Source: a virus
DNA length: 25,105 bases
Strand: one strand, 5' to 3'
Virus record (IMG/VR): IMGVR_UViG_3300025138_000323
Coordinates: 1-25,105 of that record
This document shows positions 2 through 22,677 of this stretch, piece by piece (position 1 is the stretch's first letter; each line of letters starts with the position of its first letter). The translations under genes and the position numbers were made by a program. Below the pieces are notes generated by a model that had not been told where the DNA came from, did no database searches, and saw only the letters and a list, made by a program, of their open reading frames with translations.

Positions 2-535
2 CTTTCTAACTCTAGATTTTTAAAAATTATCAACAATTTTCTGAATGAAGAGGATAGAGTGTTGTTCGAACATGAATTCGTTAGACTAACATGGGATAAG
101 CCCGACTTAACCGCTGACGAATTAAATCTTTATCTAAACGTCTGCAAAGAAGTTATAAATTTAGAAGTTATTAGCGCTCATCTTAATAAATTGAACAGCA
201 TGTTCGATGAGGCAGACGAGCAGCAAGAAATGTCTATCCGCTTAGCGGAGATCATCAAGACAAAGAGTAGCGAGTATCATCAATGCGAAACCCGCATCGA
301 GAACCTTACAAAGAAGCTTCAAGGCGACAGGGGAGAGCGCATGAAGAAAATGCATAAGGAAAACGCATCTTTTCTCGCTATTGTGCAATTATTCCAAGAG
401 CAGGAAGAAAGAGAGACGATGGTCCGAATAGCTGAGATGCAAAAAGAATCAATCAAAAAAGAAGCTGAAAGGCTTGAAGGAATGGCGGAATGGAAAGCTA
501 GAGTTTTAGGGATAAGTCAAGAAGATGCAATTTAA
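2..535 (+). CDS. Putative terminase small subunit (5' end outside window)
   Basis: The reading frame is open from base 2, so the gene probably begins left of the window; the first possible start inside is a GTG at 59, and no ATG precedes it in frame. The visible 177 residues are highly charged and mostly helical: an N-terminal part with LFEHEFVRLTWDKPDLTADE, then a long Glu/Lys/Gln-rich stretch (roughly residues 75-165 of the visible part) that looks like coiled coil. No enzyme motif is visible. It lies directly before a nuclease gene and the large terminase, overlapping the next start by 11 bases. By position and the helical, charged character I infer the DNA-recognition small terminase subunit, but no helix-turn-helix is certain and it could be another packaging accessory protein. 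Confidence 0.45.
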   Translation, partial: LSNSRFLKIINNFLNEEDRVLFEHEFVRLTWDKPDLTADELNLYLNVCKEVINLEVISAHLNKLNSMFDEADEQQEMSIRLAEIIKTKSSEYHQCETRIENLTKKLQGDRGERMKKMHKENASFLAIVQLFQEQEERETMVRIAEMQKESIKKEAERLEGMAEWKARVLGISQEDAI

Positions 536-1541
536 ATGTCAGGAATGCGGCAAGGAGTTCAAAAGCCGAAGAAGTTTACATACTCATGTAAAAGCTCATG
601 ATCTATTTGTGGGTGACTATTATGTAAAATATTACCCACGTTTTGATAAGTTAACTAATCAACCGATAGAGTATAAAAATTACGATCAGTATTTCGCTAC
701 TGACTTCATCAATATATCTAATATGAAAAAGTGGTGCGATCAGGCTCCGCGAGAAGAGGTTAGAGAATTTATAAAAAAGTCTTTAAAAGAAAAGCTGGGA
801 GCCAAGGGCATTCAAGCAGGTCCGCCGTCCACTTACCTACTAACGGGTGGTCTGCCCGACATCGACATCTGCAAACAGATGTTCGGCAGTTATCGTGAAA
901 CCTGTCAGCATATCGATATGCTCCCCATGCTATCAGCGTCTTTACCAAAAGATTTTCAAAAAGATTATAGTGATACACCTATACTAATTGACACTAGGGA
1001 ACAACAGCCATTATCTTTTATCAATTCTGACTCATTGAAATTGGATGTGGGCGACTATGCCGTAGGGGGTGATCTATACGACTATACATTTGTGGATAGG
1101 AAGTCTTACCAGGATTTTTGCTCTACTATTACAAATGGCTATTCGCGTTTTATAAAAGAGTTAGAAAGGTGCAGATCTATTGGTTGTTATCTTTATATAG
1201 TTACAGAAACAGCCTTCGATGATATGTGGGCCACCAATAAAAAAGGCTTCAAGAAGTTTAAACTAGATTATGTTTATCATCAGATGCGTTCTATACAATC
1301 TGAGTATACTGATTGCTGTCAATTTGTGTTTAGTGGCTCTAGAGAGAAAAGCGAGGAGCTTATACCCAAAATCCTTGTTTTAGGAAAGAAGCTCTGGGAA
1401 GTAGACCTTCAATATTTTTGGGACAAAGAAATTAAAAAAGATGGCTTGGGAAACAGGAAAACAGAAGCTCCACAGAGAGTACAAGGATATAAACAAACTC
1501 ATTCTAGAAAAAGAGGGGTATTTAGAAGAAGCGGAAGCTAA
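525..1541 (+). CDS. C2H2 zinc-finger plus ERCC4/XPF-type nuclease
   Basis: The protein has 338 residues. Residues 5-25 form an exact C2H2 finger (C5-x2-C8-x12-H21-x3-H25), a likely DNA-binding module. The middle (30-150) is of unknown fold. From about 152 there is an ERCC4-type nuclease domain: IDTREQ at 155-160, GDY at 176-178, and DRK-x3-D at 191-197, matching the XPF signature GD...ERK-x3-D with the Glu replaced by Asp. Such nucleases cut branched or flapped DNA in a metal-dependent way. It lies between the candidate small terminase and the large terminase, so a role in resolving branched DNA before packaging is plausible, but that is inference. The C-terminal ~33 codons overlap the start of the terminase gene by 101 bases in another frame; this tail is basic and may be unimportant. 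Start ATG 525 overlaps the upstream gene. Confidence 0.82.
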   Translation: MQFKCQECGKEFKSRRSLHTHVKAHDLFVGDYYVKYYPRFDKLTNQPIEYKNYDQYFATDFINISNMKKWCDQAPREEVREFIKKSLKEKLGAKGIQAGPPSTYLLTGGLPDIDICKQMFGSYRETCQHIDMLPMLSASLPKDFQKDYSDTPILIDTREQQPLSFINSDSLKLDVGDYAVGGDLYDYTFVDRKSYQDFCSTITNGYSRFIKELERCRSIGCYLYIVTETAFDDMWATNKKGFKKFKLDYVYHQMRSIQSEYTDCCQFVFSGSREKSEELIPKILVLGKKLWEVDLQYFWDKEIKKDGLGNRKTEAPQRVQGYKQTHSRKRGVFRRSGS

Positions 1542-9680: not shown

Positions 9681-10166
9681 ATGCCGAATGTATTAGAAGA
9701 CCTCGCTTCAGGGATTGTCACCACGGAATTTGATGGTGATACAGGGATAGCTACAGTCGCTAGTGTTAGCGGGTGGCTTTATGAGAACTTAGGACAAGTC
9801 AATTCTTACCTCTATACAAACTTTAGTGGAGATAACGCCACAGGGACATATGGATTTATGGATATTGAAGCTCAGAACGTCCTCAAAGAGCTATACCTTT
9901 CTAATTACTACAATAAAGAGGCTAGGAACGCCCTCAGAGGCATTACTAAGTCATCTGTGAGTGGAGACAACGTTTTGTCCCTAAGAGACGGTGAGAGCGC
10001 TGTGACGTTCATTAACCGTAATGAGGTATCTAAAGTCTATCGAGGGTTAGCTAACGACTGTATGGATAAGGTCACTCAAATGGCAGCTCAATACAACATC
10101 TACCAAGCCCAACCTAGACAGTTGGGTGGTATAGATGCTAGTGGAATAGGTGTGGTTTACACCTAG
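9681..10166 (+). CDS. Probable head-tail connector (adaptor-like) protein
   Basis: The 161-residue protein has a mainly helical pattern: LEDLASGIVTTEF, a GWLYENLGQVNSYLYTNFSG segment, ALRGITKSS, and a C-terminal helix with VYRGLANDCMDKVTQMAAQY. Size and position, after the capsid and before the neck genes, match the adaptor that docks on the portal and forms the first neck ring in siphoviruses and myoviruses. I recognise no exact family. Its stop codon lies one base from the stop of the convergent minus-strand gene, with a short hairpin (10148-10164) inside its last codons. No ribosome binding site is obvious; the start is close to a promoter-like sequence. Confidence 0.55.
   Translation: MPNVLEDLASGIVTTEFDGDTGIATVASVSGWLYENLGQVNSYLYTNFSGDNATGTYGFMDIEAQNVLKELYLSNYYNKEARNALRGITKSSVSGDNVLSLRDGESAVTFINRNEVSKVYRGLANDCMDKVTQMAAQYNIYQAQPRQLGGIDASGIGVVYT
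10148..10164. repeat. Short hairpin at the convergent gene ends
   Basis: AGGTGT, loop GGTTT, ACACCT forms a six-pair stem at the point where plus- and minus-strand genes meet. No T-run follows on either strand, so it would at most be a weak terminator. Confidence 0.3.
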
Positions 10167-10167
10167 A

Positions 10168-10377
10168 TTACTTACCTTGTAGGATAGCCTTCTGCTTAAG
10201 GTATTCGGCACGAATAGCATCATCCTGTTCGGGATGAGCTTTACGGGCTGCTACAAACTCCTTCTTCAGATCTCCAAGAGTCTTAGCTGTAGGTTTTAAG
10301 GCTTCTGCCTTTTTAGGGGCTTCCACCTTTTTTTCTACAGCCTTCTTCGGTTCCGCTTTCTTTTTTGAATCACTCAT
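10168..10377 (-). CDS. Small Lys/Ala/Glu-rich protein
   Basis: The protein has 69 residues starting MSDSKKK. The first half is repeated Lys, Ala, Pro and Glu, like a disordered nucleic-acid- or protein-binding tail; the second half (LGDLKKEFVAARKAHPEQDD and following) is a predicted helix. I place the start at ATG 10377, four bases after the upstream stop, rather than the in-frame ATG at 10422, which would overlap that gene by 41 bases and add a stretch unlike the rest. It is the last gene of the inverted tail operon, directly after another small charged protein. Function is unknown; a minor tail or chaperone role is possible. Confidence 0.6.
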   Translation of the reverse strand: MSDSKKKAEPKKAVEKKVEAPKKAEALKPTAKTLGDLKKEFVAARKAHPEQDDAIRAEYLKQKAILQGK

Positions 10378-10381
10378 TTTA

Positions 10382-10564
10382 TTATGCGTCTGGGTGTGTG
10401 TCAAACCAATCTTTACCGTCATTAAACACCCTATTTTTACGCCTCATAGGGACATTCGGGTCATTTAATTTGCCAGTAAAAGTTTTTTTGTTTTTATCGG
10501 TTACCTTCTCCTCCTCAAAAGAGTAGAAGAATTTTTTTTCTGTTTTTTTATCTTTATCAGACAT
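10382..10564 (-). CDS. Small charged protein of unknown function
   Basis: The 60-residue protein starts MSDKDKK, resembling the start of its downstream neighbour. It has an acidic/basic N-terminus with an aromatic FFYSFEEE patch, then NDPNVPMRRKNRVFNDGKDW near the C-terminus. It starts one base after the major tail protein stop and ends four bases before the next gene, so it is clearly part of the same message. No family is recognised. Tight spacing with the major tail gene suggests a small virion component or tail assembly factor. Confidence 0.6.
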   Translation of the reverse strand: MSDKDKKTEKKFFYSFEEEKVTDKNKKTFTGKLNDPNVPMRRKNRVFNDGKDWFDTHPDA

Positions 10565-10565
10565 A

Positions 10566-11732
10566 CTAAACTGTAAAAACGTGATTTGCGCCTATACCAC
10601 TCATAAATACTCCGTTATCGGTATCATTAGGACCGCCAATTTGAGTGGAGAAAGTAAGGTCTACGGTTTTATTGGACCCAATACTAGAAGAGAAAGATTG
10701 ACTATCTATTCTTACACCTTTTAGTGTGTATTTAATAGCGTCATTCCCTTTTTGATCCTTAACAGTAATGCTAGCTGATTGAGTGCCAGAATTCAGTATG
10801 CTTGCTAAGTTTTGGGCGTGGGCATTAGCTACAATCGCGCTGACATTCAATGTTGCACTTACAGGGAAATCAACTTCTCTCGCAAATGGGAATCGACTAC
10901 CAAGTCTATCAATAGGAGTCCTTGAAAGGGGGAGGGAGATAGAAGCACTTTGGACATGAGCGCCGTCTGCACCATCTAGTTTTACTAGAGATTCTCCTTC
11001 GACATCGGCTAGAGATAAGGTTACATCTCCTGGGCGTAATGCGGTAATTGATGGGTCACCCAATTTCCCTGTGATCCCTCCATCTTCTGTTGGATTTGGG
11101 AGAGTGATAAAAGTAATTCCTGTAGTACCTGATTCCTGATTTATTGCAGGAGTAGGGATGGCACCACCCACAGCACTGATGGCCGAGTTCATATTAGCCC
11201 CCTCAACTGTAACATTTACAGTGGGTAAAGAGCCTACAGAAAGATCAACGCTATAATCACTAAGGTAGCAATTACCTACACCAAGGACAGTATCATTTCC
11301 GTTAAGAACGTCCCCAGTACCCGCTTTATTCAAATCTTCACCATCAGGAGAAGTTACAATAAAGAAATTAACTCCAGAACTAGAAGTTAATTGCCCAGAA
11401 GCGAAGTTTCCCTGATCAAAAGCTGCCCCCGTGGTACTTCTCTGTGACCCAGCTCCAGTACCAGAATTTTGCACGAAAAAGCCCAAAGCTCTTTCGTTAA
11501 ATCCATCTGTAAGATAATAACTAAAGTCAAGGCTAACAGTGGGTGGATCAAGAACCAACGAGTCAATCCTAGCTAAGTCTCCGAATTGGTTAACATCTTG
11601 ACGATTAATCGTGAAGCTATAGTTAGCACTTTGGACACGGCCTAATTGTTCGTGGTCTGCTATTCCTCCAAGGCTAGCGTCTTTTCCGACAAACAAGCCT
11701 TCTGATTGGTAAATTACTCTGTTTCTTGACAT
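10566..11732 (-). CDS. Major tail (tube) protein
   Basis: The 388-residue protein is beta-rich and Ser/Thr/Gly-rich, as expected of tail tube subunits that polymerise round the tape measure. Its order in the inverted operon, after head closure, neck and terminator-like genes, is the usual place. Residues 35-73 (SANYSFTINRQDVNQFGD and VSLDFSYY) and 153-178 (GNCYLSDYSVDLSVGSLP) recur in the two distal tail proteins at 22677 and 24441, showing a shared fold. A middle linker (about 190-255) precedes a C-terminal half with SLPLSRTPIDRLGSRFPFAR, also matched in the 22677 protein. An AAAGAA box lies nine bases before the ATG. Arginine codons are largely AGA/AGG, unlike the capsid genes. Confidence 0.78.
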   Translation of the reverse strand: MSRNRVIYQSEGLFVGKDASLGGIADHEQLGRVQSANYSFTINRQDVNQFGDLARIDSLVLDPPTVSLDFSYYLTDGFNERALGFFVQNSGTGAGSQRSTTGAAFDQGNFASGQLTSSSGVNFFIVTSPDGEDLNKAGTGDVLNGNDTVLGVGNCYLSDYSVDLSVGSLPTVNVTVEGANMNSAISAVGGAIPTPAINQESGTTGITFITLPNPTEDGGITGKLGDPSITALRPGDVTLSLADVEGESLVKLDGADGAHVQSASISLPLSRTPIDRLGSRFPFAREVDFPVSATLNVSAIVANAHAQNLASILNSGTQSASITVKDQKGNDAIKYTLKGVRIDSQSFSSSIGSNKTVDLTFSTQIGGPNDTDNGVFMSGIGANHVFTV

Positions 11733-11741
11733 AATTAAAGA

Positions 11742-11747
11742 TTCTTT
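11742..11747 (-). promoter_or_regulatory. AAAGAA box before the major tail protein start
   Basis: On the minus strand AAAGAA is followed by nine AT-rich bases and the ATG at 11732. It matches the leaders of the scaffold and capsid starts within one base of spacing. Confidence 0.4.
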
Positions 11748-11782
11748 ATTTTGTTTACAGTTTTAATATTAAAATATGAAAT

Positions 11783-12634
11783 TTATTGGAAGCGATATCT
11801 ATATTGTTCTATGTCGAAATCGACAAATCCGACATAAAGCTCATTCGCAAGGACATTTCTGGTCCTATCTGTTAGTTTTGAGGTTCTAACTTTCTCTATA
11901 CAGAACTTAGTTTCCCCTTTGTAGTCTTCCGCTAAGCCTGTGTAGTTAAAGCTCCCCCCTTTTAGATCTCCAAGTTCTGTGATTGGGTAACCTGACATTG
12001 GTATAGCCGCAATTACCTCATCGACTGAATCCATAAAGATAGACATGACTCCATCTAATTGGTAAGTATCCTCTGCGAGAACAACGGCTTTAGCTTGGAC
12101 TTTTGTCTCTTGCATACCTCCAAGAGCAAATGGGCTATTCTCTGCTTGAGAAACAGACAGGAAAATAGCAGGGACTACGTCATCATAAGGCTCAATATAC
12201 GTGAGTGGGCCAGACGGGAGTCTTGAATTAACAGTGTATTTGTTTTCTACTATTAAGTCATCTTCGGTATCATTAGTGAGATAAACATTAAAATCTTTTA
12301 CCGCGAACTCCCCTGTAACAGTCATACTAGTATCACTACCAGAGAATAAAGCTCTGCCATTTTCAAAATCGAAAACCACACCGTCATCTCGACCTGATGT
12401 GCCAGCCCCTACTACTGAAACCCCTGTAGGTATAATAGCTCCAGAAATTGATGAATCTGTTACCCATTGTTTATAAGGGCTTCCATAAGCCACATATCTA
12501 GAATCTAATCTGGGGTCAGCATAATTAAATAGCTCTCCAGTCTTATTGCTGTAAGCTTCACCTTTTTTAAGTAAGAAATTATCAAACCACAAAAAGAAAG
12601 ATGAGGTTAGTTTGTGTTGGAATTGTTCAATCAT
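11783..12634 (-). CDS. Probable neck/tail terminator-region structural protein
   Basis: The protein has 283 residues. The N-terminal segment (about 1-60) is aromatic and polar (FFLWFDNFLLKKGEAYSNK), followed by a Gly/Ser/Thr-rich beta region with SGAIIPTGVSVVGAGTSG, and a C-terminal half that includes AAIPMSGYPITELGDLKGGS and a final beta strand region VGFVDFDIEQYRYRF. It lies between the gp10-like neck gene and the major tail protein, where tail terminator or tail completion proteins are encoded. It overlaps the upstream stop by an ATGA junction. The length is greater than typical terminators (about 130-200 residues), so an alternative is a separate structural tail protein. I recognise no family. 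Confidence 0.5.
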   Translation of the reverse strand: MIEQFQHKLTSSFFLWFDNFLLKKGEAYSNKTGELFNYADPRLDSRYVAYGSPYKQWVTDSSISGAIIPTGVSVVGAGTSGRDDGVVFDFENGRALFSGSDTSMTVTGEFAVKDFNVYLTNDTEDDLIVENKYTVNSRLPSGPLTYIEPYDDVVPAIFLSVSQAENSPFALGGMQETKVQAKAVVLAEDTYQLDGVMSIFMDSVDEVIAAIPMSGYPITELGDLKGGSFNYTGLAEDYKGETKFCIEKVRTSKLTDRTRNVLANELYVGFVDFDIEQYRYRFQ

Positions 12635-13215
12635 TTCAAGTTTTCAAATCGTTTTCGGTATCTTTTAATCAAAGAAGATATATAAGGTCTATTTTGAAAT
12701 CTACCGCTTCTGACTTTCTTTACACGGCTTTGGATAGCTGCCCCCGATCTTCCGTCACTTTTTCTTAATAAATATCCTAACCCTGACAAACCTCTTTCTA
12801 TACCTTCAGCCCAACTCCTCCCAGAAGCCCAAGGTAAAGGTGTGACCATGAATATATCTTCTGCTGTAGGTAAAGACACTTCAAATTCAACTCCTATGCC
12901 TCTTTGTCTTATTTCTTGTTTGTAAATTATTTGAGTCCCCTCTAGCAATTGTAAGATGGGAGATATTGGCTGCTCTCCAGAATTAAAACCTATAAATGCA
13001 AATAAATTACTAATACCACCAAGAGTACCACTGACGTTTGATGCTCCAGCTCCTTCTAGCAGTTCTATAGTTACAGGATCAGTCAAGAACTCTTTGATCA
13101 TTTCATTTTTTAGATCTTTGAATTTCTTGTTTATGTCCTTTTCGAAGTCTCTTCTTAGAGCTTTTGGGGCTTGCCTTTTTAAAGCATTCTGGACATCTAT
13201 AGGGAGTTTTGCCAT
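12631..13215 (-). CDS. Neck protein, HK97 gp10-like candidate
   Basis: The 194-residue protein is basic. It has an N-terminal helix with many Lys/Arg (ALRRDFEKDINKKFKDLKNE), a central beta part, and a C-terminus with RSGAAIQSRVKKVRSGRFQN then RPYISSLIKRY. The pattern of helix, small alpha/beta core and closing aromatic-basic helix resembles HK97 gp10-like neck or tail-completion proteins, which join connector and tail; I judge this by order and shape, not by a clear signature. The stop overlaps the next start (ATGA) and the start directly abuts the upstream stop, so the three genes are translationally coupled. Confidence 0.5.
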   Translation of the reverse strand: MAKLPIDVQNALKRQAPKALRRDFEKDINKKFKDLKNEMIKEFLTDPVTIELLEGAGASNVSGTLGGISNLFAFIGFNSGEQPISPILQLLEGTQIIYKQEIRQRGIGVEFEVSLPTAEDIFMVTPLPWASGRSWAEGIERGLSGLGYLLRKSDGRSGAAIQSRVKKVRSGRFQNRPYISSLIKRYRKRFENLK

Positions 13216-13683
13216 CTATTCAGTTGGGCTTAGAACGAAGGTGTAGAATTGATTAGAGGTGAAACCTCTAGGCGTACCGTCACTTTCTATTATAAACATT
13301 GTGCCATCAAACTCAACTCTACGGGCTTCACTGAGATAGTTGTATCCATCTACTTTAACCACTATTCTTACTGTACCATCAGATACTACCACTTTGTTTT
13401 GAGTGCCAGCTTGATCTGCTGGGCCATCATCTGTCAAATACGATGTATCCATGTCATCGTAATATATCCGAGCTTGAAAAGTCTGAGATTCCGTGGAATA
13501 TTCAACTGAACTGTCAGAACCAGTATTAGTTCTTCCATACAAAGAGTTCCAAGAGCTATTAGAAGCTATGAGGGTTTTCTTAGCATTCTTATAAACTGTT
13601 ATAGTTCGCGCAAATGTAGTATGTAAAGTGTCAGCTAAGTTCTGAACTTTTGTTATTTGGTCGCTTGATAAAAAACCTGCCAT
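13216..13683 (-). CDS. Probable head closure (stopper) protein
   Basis: The protein has 155 residues. It starts with a short helix (SDQITKVQNLADTLHTTFAR) and is otherwise beta-rich, with TITVYKNAKK, QARIYYD, VRIVVKVDG and TMFIIESDGTPRG strands. This size and composition are typical of head closure proteins (SPP1 gp16-like) that plug the connector after packaging. It is the first gene of the inverted operon, followed by the neck, terminator and tube genes in the common order. The start is ATG 13683, with a short leader facing the divergent gene at 13728. Confidence 0.5.
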   Translation of the reverse strand: MAGFLSSDQITKVQNLADTLHTTFARTITVYKNAKKTLIASNSSWNSLYGRTNTGSDSSVEYSTESQTFQARIYYDDMDTSYLTDDGPADQAGTQNKVVVSDGTVRIVVKVDGYNYLSEARRVEFDGTMFIIESDGTPRGFTSNQFYTFVLSPTE

Positions 13684-15786: not shown

Positions 15787-18700
15787 ATGCCAGTAAAAAT
15801 ACCAGTAGTACAAACAGGATTAGAAGCCAGCATCGAGGCGGCAGCTAAAAAAGCAGGTAGAAACCTCAAGATAAATATGGGCGGAAACGCCAAAAGTATC
15901 GAAGGGTTATCTCAACCTTTAGGACGAATTACTGGTAAGGCCGATCAGTTTACTAAATCTATGGAAGCCGCTAATGCTCGCGTGTTAGCTTTCGGAGCTT
16001 CTGTAGGCATTCTATCTTCTGTCACAAGAGGGTTCCAAGATCTCATCAGGGTGACTATTGATGTAGAAAAATCTTTAACTAGTATTAATTCTATTTTAAA
16101 TGTCACAGCCAAAGAATTAGATTCTTTTAAAAGTACTATCTTTAGTGTTGCTAAAAACACAGAGCAGTCTTTTGGTGTAGTAGCTGAAGCTGCTTTGGAA
16201 TTAAGCCGTCAGGGTTTAAAAGCTTCAGAGGTCACTAACCGATTAAACGATTCTTTGATTTTAAGTCGTCTATCTGGATTAGGAGCTTCTGAAGCTGTTG
16301 CGGGTTTAACAGCGGCTATAAACTCTTTTAATAAATCTGGAATTACAAGTTCTGAAGTTCTTAATAAGTTGTCAGCCGCCGCTGTTTCTGCTGCTGTATC
16401 TGAGAAAGATCTTATTGAAGGTATTAAGCGTTCAGGATCAGTTGCTACTCAAGCTGGTGTTTCATTCGACGAATTGGTTGGTGTGATTACAGCTGTCCAA
16501 GCTAAAACTGCGCGAGGTGGAGCGGTTATTGGTAACTCCTTCAAAACGATATTCACCAGAATACAATCTATAGACAAGCTGCGAACTATGCAGAATTTGG
16601 GTGTAGAAGTCACAGACGCTTCTGGACAAGTTCTCGGGGCTACAAAATTAATTCAAAATTTAGCTAAATCTTTAGAAGCGGTTCCAGATGCGCGAAAATT
16701 GCAGATAGCTGAAGGTTTGGTTGGAAAATTTCAGGTAGCTCCATTCTTAGCTATACTCGATGATTACAGTTCTAAGACTTCCAAAGCTATAGAGGTAACT
16801 AAGGTATCTCAAGGAGCTTTTTCAGAAGCTTATAATCGAAATGAAGCTCAGAACGTGACTCTTTCTGCAGCTATCAATAGAACAACTGTAAGTGTCGCTC
16901 AATTAGCGGAAGCATTAGGCAAGATTGGTGTCACTGACAACCTTAAATCTATGCTTGGTTTCTTTACTACTGTTGTAGACGAGATACAAGAGATTTTGGA
17001 CGGAGACGGTGTGGGGAGTAAATTTGCTAAAGGTATCGTCGCGGGTATAGGAAATATTATTACTGGACCTGCATTCGCTGTATTCGCTGCTGTTATTGGT
17101 AAACTCGTAATTGATTTAGTTCGATTCGGGGCTGGATCTCTTAAGACATTTTTCGGTTTAAATAAAGCTGCAAAAGAGCAAGCTACTCTACAAGGACAGA
17201 TCGCCTCTACTCTTTTAGGTAATTCTAATATACAGAAAAAGATTCTATCCATCGAAAATAGTACTCTAAGTGTAGAGCAAAAAAGAGTAGCTCAAACAGC
17301 ATTCTTTACTACAGCTTTAAATGAGCAAGTGGCTATAATGACTAGGATGCAAGGTATTGCAGCAAAGATAGCTCCTGGAGTTATGCGTGGCACTGGAGGA
17401 GGTAAAGGTCGCGCTGCTGGAGGATTTATTCCAAATTACAATGCTATTGTTGGTTATGGGTCAGAAAGCTCAGATATTAGTAAGGGTGTAGGAGGCGCTC
17501 CTTCTTCAGCGAGACCAGTAACTATACCCAACTTTAATTTTGGAGGCGGACAAAAAGGAACTATGGTCGCTAATAGTAGCGAATTTATAGTACCTAATTA
17601 TGCTGGAGGAGACGGGTCAGCTATCTTTAATCAAGATATGGCTGCTTCTATAGGTCTTCCTCCAAGAGCTAGGAAGATTGGTGCAGCTGGGGGTTATATA
17701 CCTAACTTCGTTAATGAAGAAGAAAGCCTAGTAATGTTCGCGGGTAATAGAGGGGTAGATAAAAAAAGAGATTTTTTTGTTGGTAAAAGAGGTAAAGAAA
17801 CTATGGCTTATTCATCGATGGCTGCGGCGCAGAAGGCGAAGTTGAGTAAAAACAGTATTAAGTCTATCCGTGTCCCTGTATACAAGCTAAACCAAAAAGA
17901 AGGCGACAAGAAGCCATTGTCTATAAAAAAAATCAGGAAAAGATTATCAACGTCGTCTACTGATACGGCGATGAAATTTGCTAAAAGCTTAGCTCCAAAA
18001 AGTGATATACCTAACATCAGCAAGAATAAATTAAAAAACTTGTTTAACCCAGGATCTTTTGAAGGGATGGCGGGAAGTATTTTCGAAGTGGCTTTAAGTG
18101 GAGTTTTGGGCAGTAGCCAATTCAAGGACTACTCAAGTAGGACTTCTAATTCTAGAATAGATTTACCTTACGACAAAGGGCTTTTCGACATGTTTGGCAC
18201 TAAAGGTAAGGGAATAATGGGGTCAGAAGTTAAAGCTACAGCTTCTTTAGCGAAGAGTGCAGCTATAAAATTTTATGATATACTCGTCGGTGGTCAGGGG
18301 GTAGCTCAATATAAAGAAAAAATTCCTGTTTATGATAAAAATGGGAAAATAATCAAAGGGAAGTTCGAGACAACTCAATTCGGCGCTCAAGTTAAGAAGA
18401 GCGAAATAGGAAATAGAATGACTGGGATTGTAGGCCCAAACGGTGGACAAGTAGGATTTGTGAAGCTTCAACAAATGTTGGGGGGCAGAGTAACTGTCGG
18501 GGGATTAAGAAATTTGAGAACGCAACAGGGTCTCCCTAATTTTGCTGGAGGATACATGCCAAATTTTGCTGGCGGGTTACAAGATGCGATAGGAAGAGAA
18601 AAAGCCGCTGGCTTACCAATAAATCAGATTCGCATAAACCAAGATTCAAAACTCAGAAATTCTGGTAACCCAATGGGGTTAGCCGTCACTAACACTAGAG

Positions 18701-21700
18701 ACGAACCTACTGGGGCTATACCTAACTTTGCTAAGGGATCAAAGGGATCTACTGGAAATGATGGCGGCGCAATTAGTGGAGATTTTCTTACTAAGTTATT
18801 TGCGGTACAAATAGGTATGTCTGCTCTTAGTGGGGTATTGGGAGAAGTAACCGACAAAAATAAAGCTGTCTCTGCAAGCTTGACGGCTTTAAATGTAGTG
18901 ATTAGCGCAGCTATGACGGCGCAAGCTTTTGGTGGATTTGCTAAAACTGCCCGTGGGATAGGAAGTTTTGCTACAGGGGGGTTTGGAAAGAGTGTTATGG
19001 GCAGAGGCCAAGGAATAGTAGACTCTGGGGTAAGAAACATGGCAACAGCTCAAACTTTGAAGGGTCGTGGTTTTACTGGCCTTGGGGGAAATTTGTCTGT
19101 TAGGAAAGGTGTAGGTTTACAAGTAACAGGAGCTTTGACAAAAGTAGGTGGAGCGCTTTTAAGATTTGCTGGACCAGTAGGAGCTGCTGCGACTGCTGCA
19201 TTCGCAGTCAGTAAAGCTATGGATTATATCAGTGGGAGAACTGAGCAAGCCGCTGATATGCAAGAGGAATTAGCAGATAGCGCTGCCTCGGCTTCTAAAA
19301 AATTATCTTCATTAAAAATACCACAGGAGTTTAAAGAAAGAAATAGAGACAGAGCAAACAAGAGATCTAAATTAGAAGGAGAGCAGCTTGGTATAGGGAT
19401 GGACGCTGAAAGAGGGTCGATTTTCAGCATGAAGGGACTTAAAGATATAGGTCTAGCTGTCAATCCATTAACTGCTATGTTTGGTGGAACGAAGGGGCTA
19501 GTAAATAGATTTGGAGGAAACATAAAAGGTACTCAAGATGACAAATTTGAAGCTAGTTTCCAAGAATCCATAAGACAGGCTTTAGAAGCGGGAGTTTCTA
19601 ATAACGTTCTAAACGAAGCTCGAAATACCTTGGAAGATACAAGAGGGGAAGGCGAACAATTTGATTCCGATGCTATTGAGGATTTTGTAGAGACTTTGGC
19701 AACCGCGAGGGCGAACCTCGATGTTCAAAAAAGCGCGAACCTAGTAAGTGCAAAATTAACTCCTGAACAAATTCGAAACATCATTAATGTAGATAGGGCG
19801 ACAAAAGAGGCAGAAGATAGCGGTCTAGATTTACCTGATGAAGTAAAAGCACAAAGAAAACAAAATAAATCGGATATCTTAGGGGCGCGGAAGGGTGTCC
19901 AAGGTGCTAATTTAGCAGATGAAGAACTTTTACGAGCAGCAGTAAGAGAAAAGGTTTTGAGTCAAGGGACCAAAATTCAAAGAATAGATAAGATCAGAGG
20001 GGATTTAGCCAAGGAAGAATTAAAATCTGCTATAGATATAGCAAAATTAAGAGCTACAGAACTATCTAAAGAAGAAAAGTTAATGGCTAATGATAAATTT
20101 AGAAAAAATTTAACAGCTATTAAAAAAGCGGAGTTGGCAGAAACAATTGCCTTACAAAAAATAGACCTTAACACAAATAAGCAAATTGCAGATTCAATCA
20201 AAAGTAGGATTAATTCTCTAGAATCTGTAGATTTCAATGAAGAAGAACAAGCTGCATTAAAAGAAAAAATTAACGGCCTCACTCTAGAACAATTGACTGC
20301 AGAAGGAAAAGTCCAAGAACTCATCAATGAAACTCTAGGTTTAGACGGGAAGAAAAAAGATGAAAAACAGGAGTTGATTAAATTGTTGAATAAGGAGGTA
20401 AGCAGGACGAGAGAGCTAGGTAGAGAGCAAAAAAAACTCGAAACAGACAAAAGGGAACCCGAAAAACAAGGGGTGTCGGCTGCGAGTCGATTGAGTAATC
20501 AAGTAGACTCTCAAATTACTGAAATTGAAAGAGCTAGAATTAGGAGAAAAATATCACAGAAAGAGAGAGAGACAGAACTTAGAGTAGACAGGGCTAAGGT
20601 AAATCCAAATTTATCTCCTACAGAAGCATTTAGAAAAGAAACTGAGTTTCTCTCTCAGGAGCAGGAGAATGCAGAGTTAGATGCGACGAGAAACCTCTTG
20701 GATGAAACGAAAAAATCTTTGATAAATATGAAAGAAACAGCTCCAGCCGACCTCGCGGATGATATCGATTTATTAGTAACAGCTCTCAATGATTTGGGGG
20801 TAAGCGGTTTGGGTAAAGTTGCAGAATTCTTTAAATTGATGGGAGAAGGAACTAAACCTCAAGTAAGTGAAGTAGGTGGTAAAGTGTTTGTCCAACAAGA
20901 TATGAAAACGGGGGTAGAAACTGTACCTGATCCAGCTCGAAAGGCAAGTAGAGCTGAAGGTGAAAAATTGCTCGAAGGTCGAGTCGATTTAGAGATTCGT
21001 GAAATGGAAGGGGAAACTTTAAAAAGAGTCAGAGGCGAGCAAGAAAAATACATCGAAGGATTTAAAACCTATAATGACCTTCTAACAAATTTCACTCGCG
21101 ATCTGAGACAGTCTGCAGAAGGATTAAAACTAGATCTTTTGATGGTTAGAGATGGATCTAGCGCTATCTCTAATATAGATGAACAATTATTCACAAAATC
21201 TGCACAAGCTGGTGGAGCAGGAGCTACGGCCAGAGCTTCAGATCAAGTAGCTCTAAGGGGAGCGACAGATAAAATTACATTAGCGAGAACTAGTGCAGAG
21301 CGGAGAGCCGCAATAAAGAATAAAGATATACTTGCTAAAGAATTAGCTCTTAAAACAGAAATAGCCGTAAAACAAGAAGATGGCATAACTAAAGAAAAAG
21401 ATCTTATAGGTCTTAGGGCGCAGCTCATAGAGTTAGAGAAACAGAGATTAGCCATCGGTACATCAAGAGCTGAATTGTTTGAAAATGAATTTAACTTTAC
21501 CGCAGAAGAAATACAAGAAGGTTTAGATAGGGCTTTGGTGCAAAATGCTAGAACATTTGTAGATACAATCAGTGATGGTTTAGTAGATGCTATAGCTAAA
21601 GGTCAAGACTTAGGTGATGTGTTGAAACAGGCTGCTTCGAACTTCTTCCTTGGAGAAGCTAAAAGTAATATGTCTGCTGCGTTTAAGAACATTACAGGGA

Positions 21701-22677
21701 ACTTCTTCGCTTCTGGTGGGCCAGTCACTGGAGGTTCAGGATCTAAAGACGATGTGCCAGCTTTGCTTATGGGTGGAGAATTCGTGATGAAAAAAAGTGC
21801 TGTTCAGAAATACGGTTCTGGATTTATGAACTCTTTGAACTCGGGTAACATACCAGCTATGGCTAGAGGAGGATTGTTTACCCCAGGAACTTATGGCCAA
21901 GGAGCTATGAAGGGTTCGCGTAATCTATTAGATTTTGCAACACAATCATTCACTACAGGAGCTTCTGATAGATTTGGTTCTGGTTCAGGCTTCGCCTCTA
22001 TAGGTTTAGAGCCTCAGAGCGCCGCTCTGACGATGTTTGGCCGTAGAAACAGTCCAGCATTCCAAAGAGAGCAAGCCTCCAAGCAAAAAGCGTTTGGCCT
22101 GTTTACTAGGCAGATGGAAAAAGAAAAAGCAGCGAGAGAAAAAGGTAGTGGATTCTCTGAAATTTTGAAGAATTCCCTATTGTCATTTGGGGCCAGCTTT
22201 GGATTCAAAAAACTTACGGATGTGTTTGGTCCAAAAGTAGACATTTCGAAAGTAGGCGAGGGGTTAGATATGCCTAAAAAGATTCGATACGCTGATGAAA
22301 GGCCATATGCTACAGGCGGATATGTCCCTAATGCAGCTGGGGTAGACACTATCCCATCCATGTTATCTGGTGGCGAGTTCGTCATGAATGCTGCCGCCAC
22401 TCAGAAAATTGGTAGGGGTAATTTAAACGCTCTTAATTCAGGCTCTGGTGGAGGATCTGGAGATGTAGTAGGTAAACTAGATGAGCTTATTTCTGTTTCT
22501 GATAATTCAGGAGAGACTGTGATTAATATTACCGTAAACTCTGATGGTTCATCTAATTCTCAAGGTAATGGAGACGATCAACAAAATTCATTAGCGACGA
22601 AAATAAAAGATGTGGTTAAACAAGTGATTGATGACGAAAAAAGACTGGGGGGATCACTAAGACAAGCTAGAGCATAA
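15787..22677 (+). CDS. Tail tape measure protein with embedded nuclease-like insert
   Basis: The 2296-residue protein sets tail length and is ejected with DNA. Residues about 55-390 form a TP901-type tape measure core (AFGASVGILSS, VAKNTEQSFGVVAEAALELS, RGGAVIGNSFKTIFTRIQSI). Hydrophobic stretches at about 417-448, 999-1018, 1030-1050 and 1121-1144 could insert into a membrane during ejection. Residues 545-985 are Gly-rich with GG-x-x-PNF/Y motifs and contain a PD-(D/E)XK-like insert (642-915). Residues about 1150-1960 are Lys/Glu/Leu-rich coiled coil. The C-terminus has two copies of a D-x-(V/I)-P-(A/S)-(L/M)-L...GGEFVM segment, common in tape measure proteins. No lysozyme or peptidase motif was seen. 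Start ATG 15787 has AAAGG nine bases upstream. The stop overlaps the next start (TAATG). Confidence 0.93.
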   Translation: MPVKIPVVQTGLEASIEAAAKKAGRNLKINMGGNAKSIEGLSQPLGRITGKADQFTKSMEAANARVLAFGASVGILSSVTRGFQDLIRVTIDVEKSLTSINSILNVTAKELDSFKSTIFSVAKNTEQSFGVVAEAALELSRQGLKASEVTNRLNDSLILSRLSGLGASEAVAGLTAAINSFNKSGITSSEVLNKLSAAAVSAAVSEKDLIEGIKRSGSVATQAGVSFDELVGVITAVQAKTARGGAVIGNSFKTIFTRIQSIDKLRTMQNLGVEVTDASGQVLGATKLIQNLAKSLEAVPDARKLQIAEGLVGKFQVAPFLAILDDYSSKTSKAIEVTKVSQGAFSEAYNRNEAQNVTLSAAINRTTVSVAQLAEALGKIGVTDNLKSMLGFFTTVVDEIQEILDGDGVGSKFAKGIVAGIGNIITGPAFAVFAAVIGKLVIDLVRFGAGSLKTFFGLNKAAKEQATLQGQIASTLLGNSNIQKKILSIENSTLSVEQKRVAQTAFFTTALNEQVAIMTRMQGIAAKIAPGVMRGTGGGKGRAAGGFIPNYNAIVGYGSESSDISKGVGGAPSSARPVTIPNFNFGGGQKGTMVANSSEFIVPNYAGGDGSAIFNQDMAASIGLPPRARKIGAAGGYIPNFVNEEESLVMFAGNRGVDKKRDFFVGKRGKETMAYSSMAAAQKAKLSKNSIKSIRVPVYKLNQKEGDKKPLSIKKIRKRLSTSSTDTAMKFAKSLAPKSDIPNISKNKLKNLFNPGSFEGMAGSIFEVALSGVLGSSQFKDYSSRTSNSRIDLPYDKGLFDMFGTKGKGIMGSEVKATASLAKSAAIKFYDILVGGQGVAQYKEKIPVYDKNGKIIKGKFETTQFGAQVKKSEIGNRMTGIVGPNGGQVGFVKLQQMLGGRVTVGGLRNLRTQQGLPNFAGGYMPNFAGGLQDAIGREKAAGLPINQIRINQDSKLRNSGNPMGLAVTNTRDEPTGAIPNFAKGSKGSTGNDGGAISGDFLTKLFAVQIGMSALSGVLGEVTDKNKAVSASLTALNVVISAAMTAQAFGGFAKTARGIGSFATGGFGKSVMGRGQGIVDSGVRNMATAQTLKGRGFTGLGGNLSVRKGVGLQVTGALTKVGGALLRFAGPVGAAATAAFAVSKAMDYISGRTEQAADMQEELADSAASASKKLSSLKIPQEFKERNRDRANKRSKLEGEQLGIGMDAERGSIFSMKGLKDIGLAVNPLTAMFGGTKGLVNRFGGNIKGTQDDKFEASFQESIRQALEAGVSNNVLNEARNTLEDTRGEGEQFDSDAIEDFVETLATARANLDVQKSANLVSAKLTPEQIRNIINVDRATKEAEDSGLDLPDEVKAQRKQNKSDILGARKGVQGANLADEELLRAAVREKVLSQGTKIQRIDKIRGDLAKEELKSAIDIAKLRATELSKEEKLMANDKFRKNLTAIKKAELAETIALQKIDLNTNKQIADSIKSRINSLESVDFNEEEQAALKEKINGLTLEQLTAEGKVQELINETLGLDGKKKDEKQELIKLLNKEVSRTRELGREQKKLETDKREPEKQGVSAASRLSNQVDSQITEIERARIRRKISQKERETELRVDRAKVNPNLSPTEAFRKETEFLSQEQENAELDATRNLLDETKKSLINMKETAPADLADDIDLLVTALNDLGVSGLGKVAEFFKLMGEGTKPQVSEVGGKVFVQQDMKTGVETVPDPARKASRAEGEKLLEGRVDLEIREMEGETLKRVRGEQEKYIEGFKTYNDLLTNFTRDLRQSAEGLKLDLLMVRDGSSAISNIDEQLFTKSAQAGGAGATARASDQVALRGATDKITLARTSAERRAAIKNKDILAKELALKTEIAVKQEDGITKEKDLIGLRAQLIELEKQRLAIGTSRAELFENEFNFTAEEIQEGLDRALVQNARTFVDTISDGLVDAIAKGQDLGDVLKQAASNFFLGEAKSNMSAAFKNITGNFFASGGPVTGGSGSKDDVPALLMGGEFVMKKSAVQKYGSGFMNSLNSGNIPAMARGGLFTPGTYGQGAMKGSRNLLDFATQSFTTGASDRFGSGSGFASIGLEPQSAALTMFGRRNSPAFQREQASKQKAFGLFTRQMEKEKAAREKGSGFSEILKNSLLSFGASFGFKKLTDVFGPKVDISKVGEGLDMPKKIRYADERPYATGGYVPNAAGVDTIPSMLSGGEFVMNAAATQKIGRGNLNALNSGSGGGSGDVVGKLDELISVSDNSGETVINITVNSDGSSNSQGNGDDQQNSLATKIKDVVKQVIDDEKRLGGSLRQARA
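17413..18744 (+). repeat. Dispersed GG-x-x-PNF/PNY motifs in the tape measure gene
   Basis: Protein-level repeats: GGFIPNY (545-551), TIPNF (579-583), VPNYAGG (602-608), GGYIPNF (635-641), LPNFAGGYMPNFAGG (916-930) and AIPNFAKG (977-984). A further GGYVPN lies at 2177-2182 (22315-22332). The codons differ between copies, so the motif is conserved at protein level and not as recent DNA duplication. They bracket the nuclease-like insert. Confidence 0.8.
17710..18531 (+). other. PD-(D/E)XK nuclease-like insert within the tape measure protein
   Basis: This domain-level annotation covers residues 642-915, between the PNF motifs at 641 and 917. An N-terminal basic part (642-730) leads to FEGMAGSIFEVALSGVLG (758-775, with E759 and E767), then RIDLPYDKGLFDMFG (790-804) and GSEVKAT (812-818). 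D801 followed 13 residues later by E814-x-K816 fits the D...(E/D)xK core of restriction-endonuclease-fold nucleases, with E767 as the helix Glu. Lys/Ser-rich and Gly-rich parts follow. The segment interrupts the Gly-rich PNF region and is unlike the coiled coil around it. Nuclease identity is inference from motif order. Confidence 0.6.
21712..22431 (+). repeat. Duplicated GGEFVM segment near the tape measure C-terminus
   Basis: SGG...DDVPALLMGGEFVM followed by a Gly and LNSGN (residues about 1976-2023) recurs as TGG...DTIPSMLSGGEFVM followed by LNSGS (about 2176-2215). The two copies are about 199 residues apart with different codons, an old internal duplication. The motif is usual at tape measure C-termini; two copies are less usual. 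Confidence 0.7.

Follow-up and report, generated by a model that had tools for sequence, protein, structure and literature searches.

What is the compact domain that sits inside the tail tape measure protein (TMP) of this phage, and could it be a nuclease that enters the host together with the genome? The enzyme domains known in TMPs serve for the most part to get the phage through the cell wall. We analysed 25,105 bases of the virus record IMGVR_UViG_3300025138_000323 (hereafter, the window, meaning the whole of this stretch). The long ORF at its right-hand side encodes a TP901-type TMP: the product matched TIGR01760 (E = 4.2e-33, 114.8 bits vs. the curated cut-off of 28.8) and, over residues 122-313, PF10145 (E = 9.6e-26, 91.3 bits vs. 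a cut-off of 33.2), and it has 0 Cys and 0 Trp. Cys is nearly absent from the 89 TMPs longer than 1500 aa that were counted, with 6 Cys in 196,400 aa and none at all in 84 of the 89. The features of the gene that concern us are as follows.

15787..22677, + strand: TMP ORF of 2296 aa, assigned by TIGR01760, PF10145 and composition
17056..17112, + strand: hydrophobic, membrane-span-like segment upstream of the slot (residues 424-442; Kyte-Doolittle 2.12)
17407..17709, + strand: upstream conserved arm (residues 541-641), ending in AAGGYIPNF; 63-98% identity across relatives, motif profile
17710..18531, + strand: cargo domain (residues 642-915), nuclease-like, candidate new family; 74-member alignment, AlphaFold2 model, no Pfam or PHROGs match
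18547..18729, + strand: downstream conserved arm (residues 921-981), GGYMPNF...NTRDEPTGAIPNF; alignment, 56-100% identity
18784..18921, + strand: second, weaker hydrophobic region downstream of the slot (residues 1000-1045), by hydropathy

The original prediction had placed an inserted domain at residues 642-915, and the insert proved to be real. It folds in the AlphaFold2 model (74-sequence alignment, pLDDT 88.5, pTM 0.81) as a compact domain, it is bounded by IPNF-type motifs, namely AAGGYIPNF ending at residue 641 and LPNFAGGYMPNFAGG at residues 916-930, and it lies between two hydrophobic segments. A segment at about residues 422-434, matching the upstream hydrophobic stretch of the window, was present in 9/9 other TMPs tested. 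The motifs quoted in that prediction, FEGMAGSIFE, LFDMFG (as part of RIDLP...LFDMFG) and SEVKAT, were all located within the insert.

The next question was which residues of the cargo are constant. In an alignment of 74 cargo sequences (mean column identity 16%), gathered with a loose motif and hence favourable to finding that motif conserved, the only invariant columns were D792 and K816; G763 was kept in 73/74. The residues of the putative site, together with one that falls outside it, are listed below.

18085..18087, + strand: E767, near-invariant acid in GSIFE, on helix 755-773 of the model (72 E and 2 D of 74)
18160..18162, + strand: D792, the Asp of motif II, within RIDLP; invariant (74/74)
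18187..18189, + strand: D801, not conserved in the 74-sequence alignment, outside the site
18226..18234, + strand: E814-V815-K816, motif III [E/D]xK, on strand 812-816 (column 814 E 34, D 40; K816 74/74)
18268..18270, + strand: K828, K or Q in every sequence, on the helix that follows motif III (K59/Q15 of 74)

It had been proposed that D801, E814 and K816 form an active site of the restriction-endonuclease type, and that poor conservation of these residues would speak against it. Conservation indeed told against D801, which we rejected as a catalytic residue since its column is mixed (D 15, K 15, E 12, T 6, S 5, G and others), and it told in favour of D792, E814 and K816, with E or D at 814 and K at 816 in all 74 sequences. 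The restriction-type order of residues thus holds across the family as E767-D792-[E/D]814-x-K816, followed by K/Q828, provided that the misassigned motif-II Asp is taken to be D792. The acid E767, quoted earlier within GSIFE with no role given to it, turned out to be conserved in the family, and the K/Q alternation at column 828 was also seen in a core set of 56 sequences (K43/Q13). Judging from the sequences, this is the pattern of a catalytic site: besides glycines and a Phe, only acids and Lys are conserved, as in the PD-(D/E)XK superfamily, with E and D exchanging at 814 and K and Q at 828.

The spaced E-D-[ED]xK pattern occurred in 94 of 106 slot segments vs. 10.3 expected in shuffles, a count obtained with a regular expression devised after the family had been seen. 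Because of this, and because the 74 sequences had been collected with a looser version of the same motif, a core HMM built from the 74-sequence set gives a fairer result: it matched 104 of the 108 distinct complete IMG/VR slots. In the four others (L134, L190, L202 and L210) the E..D..[ED]xK order is visible by eye. A further alignment, the diverse A3, offered no stretch with the conservation needed for a scan. No empty slot was found among the 108, the IMG/VR loci having been chosen by the conserved flanks themselves (13 from the first scan; L014-L156 and L167-L219 added by conserved-flank scans).

In the window model, a beta-meander (648-701) is followed by a long helix, by helix 755-773 carrying E767 and by a bridge at D792; then come a short helix, strand 812-816 with E814 and K816, and helix 819-833 with K828. 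The model of a second subfamily (L007, pLDDT 82.1) showed the same order of elements. The restriction-endonuclease fold expected by the original prediction was not confirmed. In the Foldseek comparisons, the confident window model found no restriction-fold nuclease in the PDB (best E 1.5) and no nuclease in BFVD (best E 0.23), and the L007 model found no nuclease in the PDB (best 0.13, a G protein complex). At the sequence level, no Pfam or PHROGs family matched the cargo domain; the PDB sequences gave no match of the cargo to a known nuclease domain, and the sole match to the window insert was insignificant (E 0.64). Matches of PDB sequences to seed lectins (E 0.009) were set aside as chance, resting on a short GxxFE stretch with about half of the core aligned and the [E/D]xK uncovered.

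Since neither of the two models has a nuclease match, membership in the PD-(D/E)XK fold is not established: structure comparison did not recover the alpha-beta-beta-beta-alpha-beta core, with which the order of secondary structures agrees in part, and no profile match to a known member family was obtained in Pfam, PHROGs or the PDB sequences. The cargo resembles this superfamily in having E on a helix, then D, [E/D]xK on a strand and K/Q on the next helix. It differs from it in the helix between D792 and E814, where classical enzymes have a tight hairpin, in the N-terminal beta-meander, and in the lack of a PDB or BFVD fold match or a Pfam or PHROGs profile match. We call the domain nuclease-like, a PD-(D/E)XK-like working being suggested by the pattern of residues and by where they fall on the predicted elements; the putative active site, E767 - D792 - E814-x-K816 (- K828), would be metal-dependent. 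The cargo appears to represent a new, very divergent family with a predicted fold that has no match among solved structures. As far as sequences and models go, a lineage-wide nuclease-like cargo domain in the TMP is real, its motif strong and its fold unrecognised.

The same features might be read otherwise. The cargo may have some other enzymatic activity, or it may be a structural or DNA-binding module, catalytically dead, in which E, D, E/D and K are conserved by coincidence. The two models with no fold match, the helix inserted between D and [E/D]xK and the dependence of the nuclease reading on a motif all speak for this explanation, which we regard as possible, if rather improbable. Against it stand the catalytic-site pattern described above and a second family of beads that keeps the same residue order within the same run of beads. 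In this second family E, D, ExK and a later K are invariant and the spacing is that of the classical hairpin (SxVD...LLEVKxG); it is represented by SSVDGFKFKGNKNIDLLEVKAG in L202/L210 and occurs also in L128, L130, L147 and L086. No credible Pfam match was found for it, and profile comparison detected no relation between it and the main cargo family.

While the window TMP has one bead, its relatives L012, L133, L153 and L202 have multiple beads. A recurrent motif between beads, A-A-[GS]-G-[YF]-[IV]-P-N-[FY]-A, was seen in 238 contexts in 103 TMPs and could be a cleavage or docking site. A P-loop bead (GPAGSGKST) lies between IPNF motifs in about 17 TMPs (L010:8091-8561, L012:8808-9278, L206, L214 and others), with weak Pfam matches (best about E 0.002). 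In L012, of the beads at 10530-11129 and 10062-10508, one carries LFVDYDYTIF and one starts with SILAPSGQFYDLDTADAFL; neither matched Pfam, and a HAD-phosphatase-like reading of the former, made by eye only, was not retained. The Halobacteriovorax MAG contigs L160 and L161 encode a TMP of 5001 aa with at least 7 IPNF-type motifs and several beads of no assigned kind. The multi-bead TMPs may be comparable to the polyvalent proteins of phages and conjugative elements (Iyer et al. 2017, PMC5512222), large proteins with several effector domains presumed to travel with the DNA; the carrier here is a TMP, and the words 'tape measure' are absent from the text of that paper.

How the cargo varies among close relatives was evident from the comparison with L003, where the arms are 97-98% identical to those of the window and the cargo 60-75%. 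In the cargo dS reached 0.61, compared with 0.28 on its upstream side and 0.05 immediately downstream, and the synonymous difference was 0.12 and 0.08 in the flanking intervals vs. 0.35-0.51 across most of the cargo. Against close relatives the dN/dS of the cargo was about 0.39. High divergence by itself does not set the cargo apart, because residues 1051-1400 and 1541-1750 of the TMP are broadly as divergent (vs. L003 and L008), so the idea of the cargo as the single fastest TMP region was rejected. The cargo type does not track the TMP backbone: for L008 the identity to the window is 86% over residues 1-540 and falls to 25-33% within the cargo, while for L125, L129 and L144 it is 55-59% over residues 1-540 and 50-52% in the cargo core. 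Furthermore, L005 has a hybrid cargo, which resembles L003 in its visible start and shows no difference from the window once the core begins. This mismatch and the hybrid, seen in the sequences, indicate that the cargo is exchanged by recombination between the conserved arms. For TMPs, a published survey of domain shuffling in phages was unable to confirm mosaicism of recent origin (PMC10684548); the cargo slot is a candidate for it, with defined boundaries.

As regards delivery, a location in the host cytoplasm has been predicted for the segment between the hydrophobic regions of the TP901-1 TMP (PMC5099701), and the slot of the window occupies the matching position relative to its hydrophobic regions. 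The two proteins share the conserved TMP domain, the hydrophobic regions and, by homology, the tail-length role (TIGR01760; PMC5099701), and they differ in that the stretch between the hydrophobic regions is 129 aa long in TP901-1 and holds the large cargo in the window. In the course of injection, the lambda TMP was located at the inner membrane (PMC13190303). SNIPE, described in the same work (PMC13190303), offers a parallel as a nuclease that works at the TMP/inner-membrane site of entry, with the difference that it is a host defence cutting phage DNA, while the nuclease-like domain here belongs to the phage TMP. By analogy with this TMP biology, and given the slot between hydrophobic segments, we infer that the cargo is probably delivered together with the phage DNA. 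The avoidance of Cys is common to TMP and cargo (the 74 cargo domains have 0 Cys over 18,755 aa, ten non-TMP proteins of a related phage 72 over 6,066 aa), which fits a shared route or constraint and is no proof of delivery.

Taken together, these observations lead us to favour, with about an even chance of being right, a slot cargo that is a metal-dependent nuclease-type domain, delivered with the TMP and cutting nucleic acid in the host. Lying between two hydrophobic TMP regions, it would come in with the TMP during genome entry, and its most plausible target at this early stage would be DNA or RNA of the host or of a competitor. The cargo would be swapped via recombination between the IPNF-bearing arms, some relatives stringing several beads. 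An attack on host DNA, suggested earlier, gained no specific support. Genes for TGT, QueC, C5-methylase and thymidylate synthase, four families that might protect the phage's own DNA by modification, were found in 0/17 related records, all incomplete; an N6/N4-methylase was found in 2/18 records searched, one of them a bacterial MAG. Within the scope of these records, self-protection by DNA modification was set aside.

The lack of these four families in 17 incomplete records would suit a nuclease directed at the phage genome itself and not at the host, one that processes or grips the end meeting the TMP at head-tail joining or during ejection. A core function of this kind would be expected in every slot examined, as is observed, and the window cargo is basic (49 K+R vs. 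22 D+E). The extreme divergence, the swapping of subfamilies and the multiple beads would be unusual for a constant self-processing role, and we consider this explanation unlikely. Least probable is a homing-like cassette, whose nuclease would cut the TMP gene of a co-infecting phage with a different cargo so that the arms repair the break and its own version spreads: conserved arms around a variable cargo (as in the synonymous differences from L003), the hybrid L005 and the independence of cargo type from backbone agree with it, but none of the 108 distinct complete slots is empty, the domain is read in frame as part of a virion protein, with no splicing, and other TMP regions are as divergent.

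With a nuclease-type cargo acting in the host as the preferred reading, the sequences suggest that phages of this lineage inject a nuclease with their DNA. The terminase of the window has matches of 38-91% identity in related records; among isolated phages the identity does not exceed about 29%. A related 91-kb record encodes a DNA polymerase III alpha-type polymerase, ribonucleotide reductase, PhoH, DnaB and UvsX, and this gene content suggests a lytic phage. No relative of the cargo was detected in 50,697 isolated-phage records (at tblastn sensitivity), and in bacterial genomes the cargo occurred on four contigs only, all in MAGs. Among open-licence papers, searches turned up no description of the cargo domain and nothing relevant to an IPNFA motif or to a TMP-borne nuclease. 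The broader picture, which we offer tentatively and would not expect to hold in every part, is of an uncultured, widespread lineage that may use the TMP as the carrier of a polymorphic nuclease effector of unseen fold, present in every TMP, recombining through the IPNF arms, sometimes joined by P-loop or other enzyme beads, and injected with the genome. If a nuclease-like domain is indeed in every TMP of the lineage, the TMP could carry effectors that act inside the cell as soon as infection begins, and such a cargo would offer a direct route to asking which TMP segment gets into the cytoplasm; should it prove active, the domain may also represent a new nuclease fold.

Elsewhere in the window, tRNA and Rfam scans of all 25,105 bases gave no match. 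A block of reverse-strand ORFs (10168-13683, - strand), with no function assigned, lies within the structural gene module. The ORF at 525-1541 (+ strand) combines a C2H2 zinc-finger-like N-terminus with an ERCC4-type nuclease domain (PF02732, E 2.4e-8) and overlaps the start of the terminase ORF.
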